Of a stretch of 64,000 bases of DNA, positions 10,614-64,000 are shown piece by piece. Both the position numbers and the translations under genes were made by a program. Each line of letters starts with the position of its first letter. Position 1 is the first letter of the stretch. Origin of the DNA: Bacillus mojavensis RO-H-1 = KCTC 3706 (GTDB lineage: Bacteria; Bacillota; Bacilli; Bacillales; Bacillaceae); contig NZ_JH600279.1 of NCBI RefSeq assembly GCF_000245335.1, forward strand, positions 682,001 to 746,000. The letters are read 5' to 3'. Below the pieces are notes generated by a model. It saw nothing but the letters and a program-made list of their open reading frames with translations, was not told the DNA's origin and ran no database searches.

Positions 10614-10776
10614 CTGCTTCTATCTTACCATCATTGCTCATCAGATTTGAAGATAAACCTCAGAAAAAGCAATTCCTTTATAGAAGAGAAAATCATACCA
10701 CTAATTACCTTGAGGAAATATTACATTTTTCCGAATTCTACCGTTTACAATTCACATTTTCTTCAAAATATATGTA

Positions 10777-10805
10777 TTGAATTGGTAATTTGATAGTTTT
10801 AATAT
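10777..10805 (+). promoter_or_regulatory. Sigma-A-type promoter of sboA-albABCDEFG
   Basis: TTGAAT (10777-10782), 17-base spacer and TAATAT (10800-10805), about 50 bases before the sboA ATG. The 300-base interval 10546-10856 is very AT-rich. In B. subtilis this promoter is repressed by AbrB and Rok and activated by ResD; AT-rich tracts fit but individual sites are not distinguishable by eye. Confidence 0.6.
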
Positions 10806-10856
10806 AAAAGTACATCAAAGATCTGCTAGAAAAACAAAAAAAGGGAGGATTCAATT

Positions 10857-13359: not shown

Positions 13360-14665
13360 CCTGTTTCCGATTCTGTCATTGCTGTTCAAGCAGCTTTACG
13401 GCCGCCAAGGAAAAAAAGACGCCATTCGTATCACCGCAGGGCTTGCCGTTCTGGCCTTGTTTGAAATCGGGCTGATCCGCCAGGCAGGCATTGATGAATC
13501 AACTTTAGGAAAAACATACATCACACTCGCGCTTCTGTTTATGAATGCGTACATGGTATTTCTCTCTGTTGCATCCCAATGGAAGGAATCTTACATGAAG
13601 CTGAGCTGTCTGTTGCCGATCTCTTCCCGGAGCTTCTGGCTCGCTCAGAGTGTGGTTTTGTTTGTTGATACTTGCTTGAGAAGGACGCTCTTCTTTTTCA
13701 TCTTACCGCTGTCCTTATTCGGAAACGGAACGCTGTCAGGAGCACAAACCCTGTATTGGCTCGGCAGATTTTCGTTTTTTACTGTCTATTCAATTATTTT
13801 CGGCGTTCTGTTAAGCAATCTTTTTGTCAAAAAAAGGAGAACGGCACTCCTGCTGCATGCGGCGGTATTCACCTGCGTGTGCTTCAGTGCGGCTTTGATG
13901 CCTGCCGTGACGATCCCGCTATGTACGATTCACATGCTCTGGGCTATTGCGATTGACTTCCCTTCATTTTTGCAGGCGCCTCAGCAGCAGAGCAAGATGC
14001 ATTCTTTTATGCGGACATCAGAATTTTCGTTTTATAAAAGAGAATGGAACCGGTTTATTTCCTCTAAAGCGATGCTGTTAAATTATATTGTGATGGGGGC
14101 ATTCAGCGGCTTCTTTTCGTTTCAGATGATGAACACCGGCATTGCCGATCAGCATGTCGTCTATATCGTGATTAGCGCTCTCCTGCTGATCTGCTCACCG
14201 ATTGCTTTATTGTATTCTCTTGAAAAAAATGACCGGATGCTGCTGATCACGCTTCCGATTAAACGCAGAACGATGCTTTGGGCGAAATATCGCTTTTATG
14301 CCGGTTTATTGGCCGGCGGGTTTATTTTGATTGCCATGATAATGGGCTTGATCAGCGGCCGGCCGATTTCACTTTTGACTTTTTTGCAGTGTATGGAATT
14401 GCTGCTGGCGGGGGCTTATATTCGGTTAATTTCAGATGAAAAAAAGCCGTCCTTCAGCTGGCAGACGGAGCAGCAGCTCTGGAGCGGTTTCTCTAAATAC
14501 CGTTCCTATGTATTTTGTATTCCTCTTTTTTTAGCAACTTTAACAGGCACTGTTATTTCCTTGGCAGTCATTCCGATTGCCGGGCTGATCATTGTCTATT
14601 TACTGCAAAAACAGGATGGTGGTTTCTTTGATACAAGCGGAAAAAGAGAACGGCTTGGAAGTTAA
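13352..14665 (+). CDS. albD: AlbD, polytopic membrane protein of subtilosin export/immunity
   Basis: A 437-residue integral membrane protein with about ten to twelve hydrophobic segments. It is presumed to be the permease partner of AlbC in subtilosin transport and self-protection. No ATP-binding or catalytic motif is visible. The start overlaps the albC stop and its 3' end contains the start of albE. Assignment rests on position and length. Confidence 0.9.
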   Translation: MNNLFPILSLLFKQLYGRQGKKDAIRITAGLAVLALFEIGLIRQAGIDESTLGKTYITLALLFMNAYMVFLSVASQWKESYMKLSCLLPISSRSFWLAQSVVLFVDTCLRRTLFFFILPLSLFGNGTLSGAQTLYWLGRFSFFTVYSIIFGVLLSNLFVKKRRTALLLHAAVFTCVCFSAALMPAVTIPLCTIHMLWAIAIDFPSFLQAPQQQSKMHSFMRTSEFSFYKREWNRFISSKAMLLNYIVMGAFSGFFSFQMMNTGIADQHVVYIVISALLLICSPIALLYSLEKNDRMLLITLPIKRRTMLWAKYRFYAGLLAGGFILIAMIMGLISGRPISLLTFLQCMELLLAGAYIRLISDEKKPSFSWQTEQQLWSGFSKYRSYVFCIPLFLATLTGTVISLAVIPIAGLIIVYLLQKQDGGFFDTSGKRERLGS

Positions 14666-58823: not shown

Positions 58824-59279
58824 CTATTTAAATTCGGTATTCCAGTTAAAACCGATTGTCTCATCATTCCATGGGATTCTTTTTTCATCGGGCTGATCAG
58901 GGTTATACGAGGTTGTTGTAAAATAAATAATTGTTAGCGGCGTTTCGCCCAGCACTCTGTATCCGTGAGCGACGCCTTTTGGAATCAACAACAGCATCGG
59001 GTTGTCTTCTCCCATATAATAGACATCGGTTTCTCCTTTTGTTTCTGAATCCTCCCGCAGGTCGTAAAGGACAACCTGAGCGTGGCCGGTCGGGAAGAAC
59101 CAGAGATCGTCCTGCTTCTCGTGATAATGAAACGCTTTAATCACACCCGGATAGCTTTTGGACCAAGACGCCTGCCCAAAATGCTCAAGGAGGTTCTCAT
59201 CATCGCGAACCAGTTCAGCAAAAAAACCTCTGTCATCACAATGCTTTGTCAGTTTCTTCACCTTGACTCCTTCAATCAC
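58824..59279 (-). CDS. spsL: SpsL, dTDP-4-dehydrorhamnose 3,5-epimerase-like protein
   Basis: A 151-residue cupin-fold sugar epimerase (RfbC-like) of the spore coat polysaccharide dTDP-rhamnose pathway. ASWSKSYPGVIKAFHYHEKQ contains the catalytic-region His, and IPKGVAHGYRVL is conserved. The start is the GTG 8 bases after AAAGGAG; the longer frame to 59354 overlaps spsK and has no ribosome site. Last gene of the operon; overlaps the spsK end by 8 bases. Confidence 0.9.
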   Translation of the reverse strand: MIEGVKVKKLTKHCDDRGFFAELVRDDENLLEHFGQASWSKSYPGVIKAFHYHEKQDDLWFFPTGHAQVVLYDLREDSETKGETDVYYMGEDNPMLLLIPKGVAHGYRVLGETPLTIIYFTTTSYNPDQPDEKRIPWNDETIGFNWNTEFK

Positions 59280-60123
59280 AAGCACTGCTCCTTTCCTGCA
59301 AATATTCCCGTAAAGCATCCCGCCAATGACGCGGCCGTATGCCGGCTTCTTCAATAGCCCTGTGGCTCAGCACAGAGTAAGCCGGCCGGGGTGTCGAATT
59401 CCCATATTCTTCTGTCGTTACAGGTGTAATCGTTGTGTTCAGCCCGCTTTCTTCCATAATAGCCTTTGCAAACTCATACCAGCTGCATATGCCTGAATTG
59501 CTGACATGGTAGATGCCCGGCGGATGGCTGAACAGCTTGATGACCGCTTCCGCCAAATCCTTCGTATAGGTCGGCGAGCCGATTTGATCGTTCACAACCC
59601 GCAGCTCTTGTTTTGTTTCAGCGAGCTTCAGCATCGTATGAACAAAATTGCTGCCGCTTTGTCCGTACACCCACGATGTTCTGATGATCGTGCTGTCTGT
59701 TCTTGCTAACTGGATCAGCTCTTCTCCGAGTTTTTTACTTTTGCCGTAGATGGTGTTCGGGTCGAGGTGGTCGTCTTCCCTGTATGGCTGGGTCCCCTTC
59801 CCGTCAAACACATAATCCGTGCTGATATGAACATATTGCGCTCCGATGCGGGATGACTCCAGCGCTGTGTAGTAAGCGCCAATACCATTGATCAAGTATG
59901 CTTTATCCAGCTCCGTCTCGCATTTGTCAACGGACGTAAACGCGGCGGTATTGACCACGATATCCGGCTGATAATGCCCGAACGAATGCCGTACAGAACG
60001 CTGATCGGCGATGTTCATCATCTGCTTTGTTAACGCAATGACCTCATATCCGGCTTGCTTCAGCCGCCGGCACAGCTCCAAGCCAAGCTGTCCGCTCGCA
60101 CCGGTCACCAATACCTTTGTCAA
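59272..60123 (-). CDS. spsK: SpsK, dTDP-4-dehydrorhamnose reductase
   Basis: A 283-residue RmlD-type reductase producing dTDP-L-rhamnose. VTGASGQLGLELCRRL is the nucleotide loop and the catalytic YxxxK is in TIYGKSKKLGEELI near residue 130. The start is TTG after AGAAGGTGATCCGA; a longer frame from 60219 would overlap spsJ heavily. Follows spsJ by 13 bases. Confidence 0.92.
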   Translation of the reverse strand: MTKVLVTGASGQLGLELCRRLKQAGYEVIALTKQMMNIADQRSVRHSFGHYQPDIVVNTAAFTSVDKCETELDKAYLINGIGAYYTALESSRIGAQYVHISTDYVFDGKGTQPYREDDHLDPNTIYGKSKKLGEELIQLARTDSTIIRTSWVYGQSGSNFVHTMLKLAETKQELRVVNDQIGSPTYTKDLAEAVIKLFSHPPGIYHVSNSGICSWYEFAKAIMEESGLNTTITPVTTEEYGNSTPRPAYSVLSHRAIEEAGIRPRHWRDALREYLQERSSACD

Positions 60124-60136
60124 TCGGATCACCTTC

Positions 60137-61084
60137 TCATCGGTCATTGTCTGTATACCAGCGAATCGTGCGCGCAATACCTTCTTCAAACGGCACTTCC
60201 TGCCGCCAGCCAAGCTCATTTTTCAGCTTTGACGCATTGATCGCGTAGCGCCGGTCATGCCCTTTTCGGTCTTCGACGTGAGCAAACAATTCCTCACAGC
60301 CCAAATGTTTCATGATGATACTCGCCAGCTCTTTATTCGTGCGTTCATTTCCGCCGCCGATATTATACACCTCACCGTCGGTTCCTTTTTCTAAAATCAG
60401 CTTGATGGCGCGGCAATGGTCCTCTGCAAAAAGCCAGTCTCTGATCTGAAGCCCGTCACCGTAGAGCGGAACCGGCAAGCCTTGTTTTGCATGGCGGATA
60501 ATCGTTGGGATCATTTTTTCACTATGCTGATATGGGCCGTAATTGTTGCTGCAGCGTGTAATAATAGCCGGCAGCTTGTGTGTTTTCACATACGATAGCA
60601 CAAGTAGGTCAGAGCTCGCTTTGCTCGCGGAATAAGGGTTGTTAGGAGAAAGCGGCGTTGTTTCCGTAAATGCGGGATCATTCGCTTCTAAATCCCCGTA
60701 CACCTCGTCTGTTGAAATATGAATCAGCTTTTTGGCTTTCCCTTGTAAGACTGCCTCCGCCAGACGGTATGTGCCCATGACATTCGTTGTGATAAACGGC
60801 TCCGCTTGGGAGATGCTTCTGTCTACATGCGATTCCGCGGCGAAATGAATCACGGCGTCATAGGTCTCGTCAAACGCCCGGTCAATATCCTCCTGAATGC
60901 TGATATCCCCTTTTACAAACCGAAACCGGCTGTTTCCCTTTAGTTTTTCGATTTCCTGCGGGTGGCTGGCATACGTTAATTTATCTAAAACGGTAATGCG
61001 CGCATCCGTTTCCTTCAGCATGAGCTTTGTAAACGTGAGCCCTATGAATCCGGCCCCGCCTGTAATGAAATATGATTTTGCCAT
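60137..61084 (-). CDS. spsJ: SpsJ, dTDP-glucose 4,6-dehydratase
   Basis: A 315-residue RmlB-type SDR dehydratase that forms dTDP-4-keto-6-deoxyglucose. [13 protein letters not shown] at the N-terminus is the NAD loop, and [10 protein letters not shown] plus [11 protein letters not shown] (YxxxK near residue 147) are catalytic motifs. The start is the ATG at 61084, two bases from the spsI stop; a longer frame beginning at 61171 lies inside spsI and is rejected. Confidence 0.94.
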
Positions 61085-61086
61085 AG

Positions 61087-61824
61087 CTATTCGTCCTGTC
61101 CTTTCTGTAAAGCCTGATGTACCAGCCGGGAGGCGAGATAAAGCGATTCGTGTGTTCCTGCATCGACCCACCAGCCCGATAACACATCATACGTCAGCTT
61201 GCTGTTTTCAATGTATAAATTATTTACATCAGTGATTTCCAGCTCGCCGCGCTTTGATGGTGATATTTGTTCAATATACGAAAACACTTCTGCATCATAC
61301 ATGTAAATGCCGGTTACACAAAGGTTGGTCGGCGGATTTGCAGGCTTTTCAATAATGGATCGAATTTGTTTGTTTTTTTCATCAATTTCAGCAATTCCAA
61401 AACGTTCTGGATCATCCACTTCTTTCAGAAGCACCTTCGCCCCTTTTCCCTGCTGTTGAAATCGCTCCGTATAAGGCTTTAATGAATCTTCAAAAATATT
61501 ATCACCTAATAATAAAATGAAAGGCTTCTTTCCGGTAAAGCGTTTTGCATACGATAACCCATCTGAAATTCCAGATGCGGCGGGCTGCACTTGATAAGTG
61601 ACGGAGACGCCCAGCTCCTCCCCGCTTCCAAGCAGCTTATAAAACTGAGGCATGTGCTCTTTTTGGCTGATAAGTAAAATCTCTTTAATTCCGGCTTCCT
61701 CAAGCTTCATTATCGACCAGTAAATCATCGGATAAGGGCCTACAGGAAGCAAATGCTTGTTGACGGCTTTGGTTAAGGGCATAAGGCGTGAGCCGTTTCC
61801 TCCGGCTAAAATGACACCTTTCAC
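61087..61824 (-). CDS. spsI: SpsI, glucose-1-phosphate thymidylyltransferase
   Basis: A 245-residue RmlA-type nucleotidyltransferase making dTDP-glucose, the first step of rhamnose supply for the spore polysaccharide. The N-terminal signature [27 protein letters not shown] and the LLGDNIFED metal site are intact. The start is GTG after AAGGAAGTGTTAAT. Directly upstream is a 370-base region of decayed spsE, so expression of spsIJKL may now depend on read-through or a local promoter. Confidence 0.95.
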
Positions 61825-61984
61825 ATTAACACTTCCTTACATGCATTTTTATATCTTATCATCAAGCAAATCATAATAGATGGGTGATACCCGGTTCATT
61901 CCTTTTCCATTTACGAGCGGCAGGCCGATTCACTCTGCAGCTGAGACATCAGGGCGCTCGCCTGCTTTTTGATAGAGGACTGAG

Positions 61985-62197
61985 ACCAAGTGATAGTCTT
62001 CCGGCCGCCGTTTTGTCGGCTTGAAACATTTGAAATTTAACGAATTTAATGATATTGCACCCGCTTCCGACGCGGCATCAATCCCGTGCAAAGGCCTAAT
62101 CCCTTTTACCGTCATGATTAATACCTGTCGTCTCGAAACTATTAAAAACGGGAGCGTGCTTGCCGACAGTTTTGTTCGTGATCTGAAAACCCGCCAT
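61985..62197 (-). pseudogene. spsE: Remnant of spsE (sialic-acid-synthase-like spore polysaccharide gene)
   Basis: Starting at an ATG that overlaps the spsD stop (TAATG), the minus strand reads MAGFQITNKTVGKHAPVF, then GINHDGK, interrupted by TAG and TGA stops. Shifted frames then give VKFQMFQAD and KTAAG. These blocks follow in order the N-terminus of SpsE (about residues 1-70 of some 370). Several frame changes and stops show that it is dead. Everything downstream, including spsF and spsG, is missing: only about 160 bases (61825-61985) remain before spsI, with a short hydrophilic reading frame (KKQASALMSQLQSES) that might be the tail of the last deleted gene. Confidence 0.8.
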
Positions 62198-63066
62198 TAT
62201 TTCGCCTTCTTGCCCGGCCAAATGTGGTAATTATAATACGATTGAACAGCGGTAAATCCCATTCTTTCATATAGGCGGATCGCTCTTACATTATGAAGCT
62301 GCGTCCCCGCTGTTACCGTTTTATGCTTCAATGTCTCCGGTTGTTCTATGAGATGCGCCAATAAATTAAACGCGACACGCTTGCCTTCATACCCCGGCTT
62401 CACAGCCATCAAATCAAGCACATACTCATCACCTTTTGATAAACCTTGCAGGTAGCCGATCATCTCTCCATTATATTTAGCAGCAATATTGATATCTGCT
62501 CTCCCCGACAGATTGTTTCGTGTCCACTCTTGAAAGATTTTGTTCGCCGCCTCACGGCTAAGAAAAGGATCGTGAAAATATCTGCTTTTCGCAAATGCGT
62601 CGCTGGCTAACTGGCAAATCTCTTCGGTGTCTCCAGGTTCAGGCTGAACCAGTTCAAAAAATGGCGGCGTTTTTTCATATGGAGACGGAGTGTTCACCAG
62701 TTTAAGCAAACTGCCGACAAAATAAGAGGACGGCTGCTGCTGAATGACATGTACTGCTCCAATATCCTCTGCCGGTACACGCACAAACACAAAATCTGTT
62801 TCATCCATTTGCCGAACAGAATACAGGGCCTGAAACAGCTGTTTTAGCTGCCCTGTGCTGTTGGCCACGAGAAGCTTTACGTTCATGACTTTTTTCTGAA
62901 GCATTTTGCTTTCCCAAAGGGCGTCTTCATACAGCATCACGCCTTGAAGCTGACTGTTTTCAAACAGGCCGAGCGAAAATTGATACGATCCGTCAAGCGT
63001 CATCTGTTTGCTTTGGAGAAATTCCATGATCGCCTCTTGGGAAACATTCTCTTTTATCGTATACAC
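62197..63066 (-). CDS. spsD: SpsD, GNAT-type acetyltransferase of spore polysaccharide synthesis
   Basis: A 289-residue protein with a C-terminal GNAT domain (about 150-285: VLDLMAVKPGYEGKRVAFNLL is the acetyl-CoA-binding region; VRAIRLYERMGF follows). It probably N-acylates an amino sugar made by SpsC. The start is GTG, immediately after the remnant spsC stop (TAG-GTG). The frame is intact although its neighbours on both sides are broken, so it may be a recently orphaned gene. Confidence 0.9.
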   Translation of the reverse strand: MYTIKENVSQEAIMEFLQSKQMTLDGSYQFSLGLFENSQLQGVMLYEDALWESKMLQKKVMNVKLLVANSTGQLKQLFQALYSVRQMDETDFVFVRVPAEDIGAVHVIQQQPSSYFVGSLLKLVNTPSPYEKTPPFFELVQPEPGDTEEICQLASDAFAKSRYFHDPFLSREAANKIFQEWTRNNLSGRADINIAAKYNGEMIGYLQGLSKGDEYVLDLMAVKPGYEGKRVAFNLLAHLIEQPETLKHKTVTAGTQLHNVRAIRLYERMGFTAVQSYYNYHIWPGKKAK

Positions 63067-63412
63067 CTAACCAGCCCCTTTTGCGGTGTCCCGCACGGCC
63101 TCAATCACGCCGTTGACATCTTCGTCAGACATTGATGGATACAGCGGGAGTGACAGGGTGCGTTTGTAATTATTCATGGCGCGCGGGTAGTCTGTTTCCT
63201 TAAACCCAAATTGCTTTTGATCATACGGATGAATATGCACTGGGATAACATGAACACTGTGTGCCGATATTGTATTCATCCTTTAAAGCCGTAAACATCT
63301 CATTCCGAGTGACACCGGCCTGCTTTCCATTGGCTTGCAGGACATATACATGCCAGGCATGCCGGCCTTCATTGTGAACAAACGGCGTGATCAGCTCTGA
63401 CAAACGCGGCAA
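63067..63412 (-). pseudogene. spsC: C-terminal remnant of spsC (aminotransferase), frameshifted
   Basis: Only about the last 110 residues of the 389-residue DegT/DnrJ/EryC1-type aminotransferase remain. ELITPFVHNEGRHAWHVYVLQ to KDEYNIGT lie in one frame; SVHVIPVHIHPYDQKQF to the C-terminus lie in another. Removing one base within 63258-63264 joins them as NIGTSVHVIPVHIHP. The PLP-binding and catalytic N-terminal part is absent, deleted up to the end of spsB. The protein cannot be functional. Confidence 0.85.
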
Positions 63413-63414
63413 TG

Positions 63415-63999
63415 TTATTCAGAATGATTCCGCCTGTAATCAACCCCTGTTTTCGCTTCCAGTGCCGAAAACAAGGCGAGTGTCGACTCAGTAACCGGGT
63501 AATTGGAAGCCGTAAATGACTGACGCGCCGCTTCTGCCCTCTGATACATGGCGGGATTTCGAAGAACCTCAATCAGGGTATGCGCTAATTCCTCCGGCTT
63601 TTCAAATATAAAATCGCCAAGAGACTCGTAATACGGGTACGTGCGGTTTCCGGTCGATTTTCCGATTAGTGCGGGTTTTTGAAACAGCATGGCCTCAAGA
63701 CCCACCGTTGAGGTTTGCGTTACAGCGGCGTCTGCATACGCCAGGATATCGTACAGATCCATCTCTTTTTTGATGATTCTGCATGCTTTATGTTTTTTTG
63801 CCGCCGCATGATATATATCCAGCTTGTTTTTTCCGATTTCCCACGGGTGAGGTTTAATGATGATTTGCAGCTGTTTTTGCGTGGAAAGCTCATCTAACAC
63901 ACTTGAATAAAATTCTTCCGAGAAGGGCTGTGTGGCGATCAAAACGATTTTTTTAGACGGGTGAAAGGCCAGCTTTCGATAAAATACTGACATGTCCAT
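63415..63999 (-). CDS. spsB: SpsB, C-terminal part (runs off window)
   Basis: At least 194 residues of the C-terminus of SpsB, a protein of spore coat polysaccharide synthesis resembling capsule polysaccharide / CDP-glycerol glycerophosphotransferase-type enzymes. [41 protein letters not shown] and [16 protein letters not shown] are typical of that family's nucleotide-binding half. The last residues (RRNHSE) may come from the start of spsC after the deletion. The 5' part lies beyond the right edge, so its integrity is unknown. Confidence 0.8.
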
Positions 64000-64000
64000 A

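Follow-up and report, generated by a model that had tools for sequence, protein, structure and literature searches.

Remnants of spsE, spsF and spsG in a Bacillus sps operon and the probable replacement of legionaminic by pseudaminic acid genes

Both non-orthologous pathway displacement and serotype-like cassette switching are known at surface-polysaccharide loci, and one gene of the pathway considered here, spsM, is the integration gene of phage SPbeta. The closest described system is that of B. subtilis, where, according to the available text of its description, SpsM, C, D, G, E and F produce CMP-legionaminic acid (CMP-Leg) under the control of sigma-K and Leg is reported as required for the assembly of the crust (Dubois 2020, PMC7439481); the available part of a second paper lists sps and yodU-ypqP (= spsM) among the mother-cell genes (PMC517825). 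For B. thuringiensis, the same available text describes a seven-enzyme pathway to pseudaminic acid (Pse) that proceeds by way of Pen and Pal (Dubois 2020, PMC7439481).

The window analysed here is a stretch of 64,000 bases (G000:C3:682001-746000, G000 being its genome) with the sps operon on the minus strand. As the reference for remnants we used B. halotolerans (L009), which at 93% in SpsD came closest among the four named loci found and in which spsC-D-E-F-G-I form an uninterrupted run. Operon, gene order and flanks are the same as in the B. subtilis CMP-Leg system, as far as the available text of PMC7439481 describes it, and spsA, B, D, I, J, K and L are orthologous and intact in G000, whereas spsC, E, F and G, together with spsM, have decayed. 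The features in the window are:

58827..59270, minus strand: spsL, intact, given without stop codon (longest ORF 58824-59354); 99% to B. halotolerans, no internal stop
59275..60123, minus strand: spsK, intact, given without stop codon (longest ORF 59272-60219); 97% to B. halotolerans, no internal stop
60140..61084, minus strand: spsJ, intact, given without stop codon (longest ORF 60137-61171); 99.7% to B. halotolerans, no internal stop
61087..61824, minus strand: spsI, intact, 245 aa; 98% identical to B. halotolerans SpsI, stop-free
61825..62196, minus strand: sps gap with degenerate spsE, spsF and spsG (tblastn, DNA match, stops)
61825..61921, minus strand: spsG 3' remnant, gene bases 954-1023, plus the spacer to spsI (DNA match, tblastn)
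61920..62002, minus strand: spsF remnant, gene bases 597-679, aa 192-226 (DNA match, tblastn)
62013..62197, minus strand: spsE remnant, the 5' 173 bases of the gene, aa about 1-58, interrupted by stops (tblastn, DNA match)
62197..63066, minus strand: spsD, intact GNAT acetyltransferase, 289 aa (ORF; Pfam GNAT)
63067..63426, minus strand: spsC remnant, bases 121-167 joined to 843-1170, frameshifted (DNA match, tblastn)
63415..64000, minus strand: spsB, 3' part, intact; the whole gene, 480 aa, leaves the window (L003 7415-8857)

A sequence-only reading of this stretch had placed 372 bases between an intact spsD and an intact spsI, which the coordinates bear out (61825-62196, minus strand), and had recognised, from a start codon overlapping the spsD stop, an SpsE N-terminus broken by stops, which ORF reading and tblastn confirm. 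It had further held that homology ends after the spsE piece, and in this it was mistaken: pieces of spsF and spsG come next, and by comparison with B. halotolerans the three remnants stand in the order spsE, spsF, spsG of the intact operon. The spsE remnant matches B. halotolerans SpsE at 63% over 62 columns (tblastn, E 2e-14), the spsF remnant shares 94% nucleotide identity with its counterpart over 83 bases (tblastn E 1e-9), and the spsG remnant corresponds to aa 317-341 at 80% (tblastn, E 2e-7). Aligned with the B. halotolerans sps region, the gap is in line with the deletion through spsE-F-G that had been proposed, but its homology runs on into spsF and spsG. The proposed inactivation and deletion of spsE, spsF and spsG holds, only degenerate pieces of all three being left. 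The decay of spsC had been missed; in the comparison with B. halotolerans, most of its 5' two-thirds is deleted and its 3' part is split over two frames.

The lesions extend to a second locus. In B. halotolerans, spsM sits between msrB and phy, unlinked to sps, and at this site G000 (L072) retains only scraps of the gene, aa 18-40 and 55-88, in different frames, with no intact SpsM among the matches listed in a protein search. Of the six genes of the SpsM-C-D-G-E-F pathway, spsD alone is intact in G000; with spsC and spsM gone besides spsE-F-G, the Leg pathway is, to judge from gene content, dead in this genome. Gene names outside sps (ywn, cge, phy, msr) follow the B. subtilis map.

From the sps lesion it had been concluded that the organism cannot make the sialic-acid-like precursor, a claim that is not supported and is probably wrong, as an intact seven-gene Pse cluster of the Pen-Pal type lies about 130 kb off in the same genome:

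G000:C3:608293-615092 (L004 2293-9092), outside the window: Pse cluster, seven genes, at the ywnG-ywnF site

The consequence to be expected of the sps lesion, as far as gene content predicts it, would be a changed sugar and not an absent one. A search of the rest of the genome for spsE found no SpsE orthologue and a different NeuB-family synthase: the strong second match is PseI, the last gene of the cluster, and a weak, partial one (about 33 bits), with counterparts in other genomes, is presumably a DAHP-synthase relative, so that the candidate of an intact spsE elsewhere was rejected.

The cluster comprises Pen, Pal, PseC, an SpsF-like cytidylyltransferase, PseG, PseH and PseI. The first-step enzymes Pen and Pal were both found through their best solved matches in the PDB, 6bwc (E 3e-140), which we take to be Pen, for the first gene and 6bwl ('Pal', E 2e-156) for the second; the first gene stays below the NCBI PseB cut-off (325 vs 408 bits). 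PseC, PseG, PseH and PseI pass their curated NCBIfam cut-offs (518/424, 324/154, 142/93 and 514/340 bits). The cytidylyltransferase matches Pfam CTP_transf_3 with 107 bits and the PseF model only weakly (35 bits vs a cut-off of 206), and its assignment is the least certain in the cluster. Set beside the B. thuringiensis Pen-Pal CMP-Pse pathway, as far as the available text describes that system, the G000 cluster is alike in its seven genes, in having Pal and 6bwc as best solved matches and in its PseC, G, H and I above the cut-offs, and differs in lying at ywnG-ywnF behind a sigma-K-like block and in a cytidylyltransferase far below the PseF cut-off. Among the matches listed in a literature search there was no paper on Pse in Bacillus spores; the only listed paper with both Pse and B. 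mojavensis (PMC7912018) is, in its available text, unrelated, and the available parts of PMC4191935 and PMC13228054 gave nothing on this subject.

We surveyed 44 genomes of the genus, one per species, of which 33 bear sps genes; sps loci were read in 14 of these 33 and spsM loci in 9, and the remainder rests on protein searches; locus L082, which proved to be a misplaced stretch, does not enter the analysis. By these searches, the Pse cluster (PseI and Pen) is found in 6 of the 44 genomes and SpsE in 27, never both in one (0/44), with 11 having neither. The Pse genomes are G000, G007, G010, G023 (B. inaquosorum KCTC 13429), G032 and G066 (Bacillus sp. N13C7), and relative to G000, PseI is at least 88% identical in the others and the first gene at least 91% (89.9% over its full length in G010). 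In all six, the seven Pse genes are near full length and stop-free, spsC, spsE and spsF are in pieces or gone, and spsG is at most partial; spsM is broken in five and was not found beside msrB in G032. Among the 27 SpsE genomes, the eight with loci read have spsC, spsE and spsG open throughout and spsF open in all but one (7/8, the exception being G063).

We consider it probable that Leg has been replaced by Pse, repeatedly, and that the sps lesion is one half of such a pathway replacement. This lineage would have acquired the seven-gene Pse cluster at ywnG-ywnF, with a block ahead of it that resembles a promoter for sigma-K, the mother-cell factor; the supply of CMP-Pse late in sporulation would have made the older CMP-Leg pathway dispensable; and stops, frameshifts and deletions would then have worn down spsC, E, F and G, together with the unlinked spsM, while spsD and the other genes for the crust glycan (spsA, spsB, spsI-L) were kept. 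As sps and spsM are mother-cell genes in the available part of PMC517825, the new cluster would be expressed where Leg was made. The cluster is presumably expressed in the sporulating mother cell, its product is probably Pse, and this would reach the spore crust; we infer, too, that the gain of Pse came before the loss of Leg.

The block upstream of the Pse cluster is nearly invariant in all six genomes, and the DNA preceding it differs from genome to genome in both length and sequence. The motif AC-N16-CATANNNT sits 64-73 bases ahead of the first Pse gene in each of the six; with a spacer of 15-18, this pattern has a chance probability of 0.028 per random 91-mer of the same composition and of 0.14 per 400-mer, and it occurs in the window 0.125 times per kb and strand. 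A stricter sigma-K pattern, whose -10 has a final A (CATANNNTA, the letters that we take to be those of the sigma-K -10), matches upstream of none of the six clusters, missing by one base. An invariant AGGC stands 10 bases ahead of the -35 in the aligned blocks and may be GerE-like; a simple GerE pattern had no match upstream of the six clusters. Homologous blocks are present at 11 of the 12 sites examined, the exception being the empty site of G015, and in all 11 aligned sequences the -35 AC and the -10 CATA are invariant. The site is occupied in G005, G012, G020 and G063 by a frame of about 600 aa, a 599-aa fusion of NeuB and cytidylyltransferase, with the homologous block ahead of it:

L052 8823-10622, with further copies in L053, L054 and L066: NeuB-cytidylyltransferase fusion

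The domains of the fusion were assigned by a Pfam test on the G005 copy, to which the other three are about 90% identical. As a displacing cassette it was rejected, all four carriers having spsE. A sigma-K-like block without any gene between ywnG and ywnF is kept in G004, which we take to be B. subtilis 168 (L064 about 13765-13825), as if a cassette had been lost.

In its layout, the upstream block agrees with the sigma-K motif published in the available part of PMC517825, whose -35 spans five bases and has C at position 4 and whose -10 spans ten bases, with a gap of 14-16 between the two. This bears on the reading that what the Pse cluster serves to decorate is flagellin or the vegetative surface, its anticorrelation with the Leg genes then reflecting coincidence or competition for shared precursors, which we regard as rather unlikely. 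In other bacteria, clostridia among them, Pse is a sugar of the flagella (available text of PMC13317340), and the upstream block falls one base short of the strict sigma-K pattern, but the block is invariant at its -35 and -10 in 11/11 sequences and also stands ahead of a different NeuB-family gene at the same site, and sigma-D and sigma-A patterns matched upstream of none of the six clusters. Patterns for sigma-E promoters, tried alongside these two, were likewise rejected (0/6).

Plain loss, the view taken from the sequence alone, holds that the nonulosonic acid branch of sps is dispensable and that the crust does without any such sugar, nothing having functionally replaced it. The wrecked Leg genes would fit this, but the absence of SpsE among the 33 sps-bearing genomes is confined to those with an intact Pse cluster (6/6 vs 0/27 of the others; Fisher 9e-7, kinship ignored), spsA, B, I, J, K and L are stop-free in all six of these, and a tree of 14 genomes yields five branch-disjoint pairs, every one contrasted in opposite directions (sign test p 0.0625, the lowest possible with five pairs), and we consider plain loss quite unlikely. 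It also draws on two genomes with decay and no Pse. One is G063, in which spsE is present, most of spsF is lost (L044, about 10640-10856) and spsB and spsI have one stop each; the sps operon can decay without Pse, as this genome illustrates, and its spsF loss may represent the same kind of replacement at the scale of a single gene (G063 has the NeuB-cytidylyltransferase fusion) or an operon simply decaying. The other is G029, where no SpsA orthologue, SpsB, SpsD, SpsE or Pse cluster was found and a split spsM remains, and which represents either loss without replacement by Pse or missing assembly. In the 11 genomes with neither SpsE nor Pse, a search for SpsB, made without a positive control, found none (0/11), and in three of them, G029, G014 and G024, matches to SpsA reached 48% or less, against more than 80% in the controls G004 and G002.

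Switching between Leg and Pse genes must, on the tree, have occurred more than once. The tree covers 14 of the 33 sps-bearing genomes (6/6 Pse, 8/27 SpsE) and nine genes, located beside these loci or in other parts of the genome, with 7839 of 10819 columns used (G011 23% and G018 38% filled). In two fully supported placements, G000 stands next to the Leg species G015 and G010 next to the Leg species G020; G007 groups with the Leg species G005 and G063, Pse and Leg species being interleaved. Treating the six Pse genomes as one clade is rejected (p-AU 2e-6), and with it one ancestral loss; the Pse/Leg label needs at least 5 changes. The lesions themselves have at least four structures among the six Pse genomes:

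Structure 1, G000: remnants of spsC, E, F and G
Structure 2, G007: spsC base 115 joined to spsG base 636; the only Pse genome in which spsD is lost
Structure 3, G032: 64 and 88 bp left
Structure 4, G010, G023 and G066: a common junction of spsE about 125 to spsG about 183, with spsC differing

As G010, G023 and G066 have a common junction, which fits a haplotype moved by recombination or an ancestral polymorphism, the number of independent losses is settled only as more than one. Between G000 and G032 the Pse genes are 94.8% identical and other genes 81.5%, and between G007 and G066 the values are 96.4% and 92.5%; by this measure of sequence identity, the Pse cluster is shown to move horizontally. 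An assembly or sequencing artefact in a draft genome has next to no claim as the explanation of the sps lesion, for although the G000 assembly is a draft of 29 contigs and the msrB beside its spsM scraps is frameshifted, the remnants are diverged and stop-bearing, and in five further genomes of the genus the loss is seen at this place too, in versions of their own, with the same genes lesioned differently in these five other species and spsM stop codons, too, in two of them.

One Leg gene departs from this pattern. SpsD is present in 32 of the 44 genomes, namely the 27 with SpsE and five of the six with Pse, a survival that pure replacement does not explain: a gene serving Leg alone would be expected to decay along with those around it. 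For spsD, dN/dS comes to 0.215, 0.224, 0.239 and 0.155 in four pairs of Pse genomes (0.155 being the value for G000-G032, where dS is near 1.2 and close to saturation), 0.101-0.166 in four Leg-Leg pairs, 0.203, 0.161 and 0.143 in three mixed pairs, and 0.20 between G000 and B. halotolerans. These values are suggestive of an spsD still under purifying selection, perhaps slightly relaxed, and go no further than that because pairwise values include the time before the loss. SpsD may have a substrate independent of Leg; it is not essential, as G007 has lost it.

While the genomic exchange of Leg and Pse is well supported by the comparison of gene sets, a broader picture can be drawn only tentatively, although we would give it serious consideration. 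In it, the nine-carbon sugar on the spore surface would be exchanged within the B. subtilis group in the manner of a serotype; at ywnG-ywnF, one conserved mother-cell promoter would stand ahead of a full Pse cluster, a NeuB-cytidylyltransferase fusion or nothing; the arrival of Pse would each time be followed by the collapse of Leg at two unlinked loci; spsD would have a role other than in Leg synthesis; and 168 would still have a promoter orphaned by the loss of its cassette. What this case has in common with pathway displacement and with the serotype-like switching of cassettes at surface-polysaccharide loci is the horizontally moved alternative cassettes at one site, the mutually exclusive pathways and the degenerating genes of the loser; the differences are that the surface here is probably that of the spore and that the displaced genes lie at two other loci, outside the exchanged cassette. 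Species that dropped Leg with an alternative pathway in hand each time suggest that the sugar is exchangeable and would offer ready-made test cases for its role. Either the transferase for nonulosonic acids in the spore accepts both sugars, or it has changed together with the sugar, and a comparison of Leg and Pse species would therefore narrow the search for it.

The decay of spsM would also destroy the gene that SPbeta uses for integration. Among the matches listed, spsM is in two pieces, 4.5 kb to 134 kb apart, in G002, G004, G011, G018 and G029, all without a Pse cluster, as would fit prophage-like insertions where SPbeta is known to integrate. The neighbours of spsM show damage of their own: in G000, msrB (L072 8383-8815), which adjoins the dead gene, is frameshifted after about codon 21, either in reality or by assembly error, and the phytase gene beside spsM is in fragments in G007 (L060 6911-7173) and frameshifted in G010 (L075 8084-9225).
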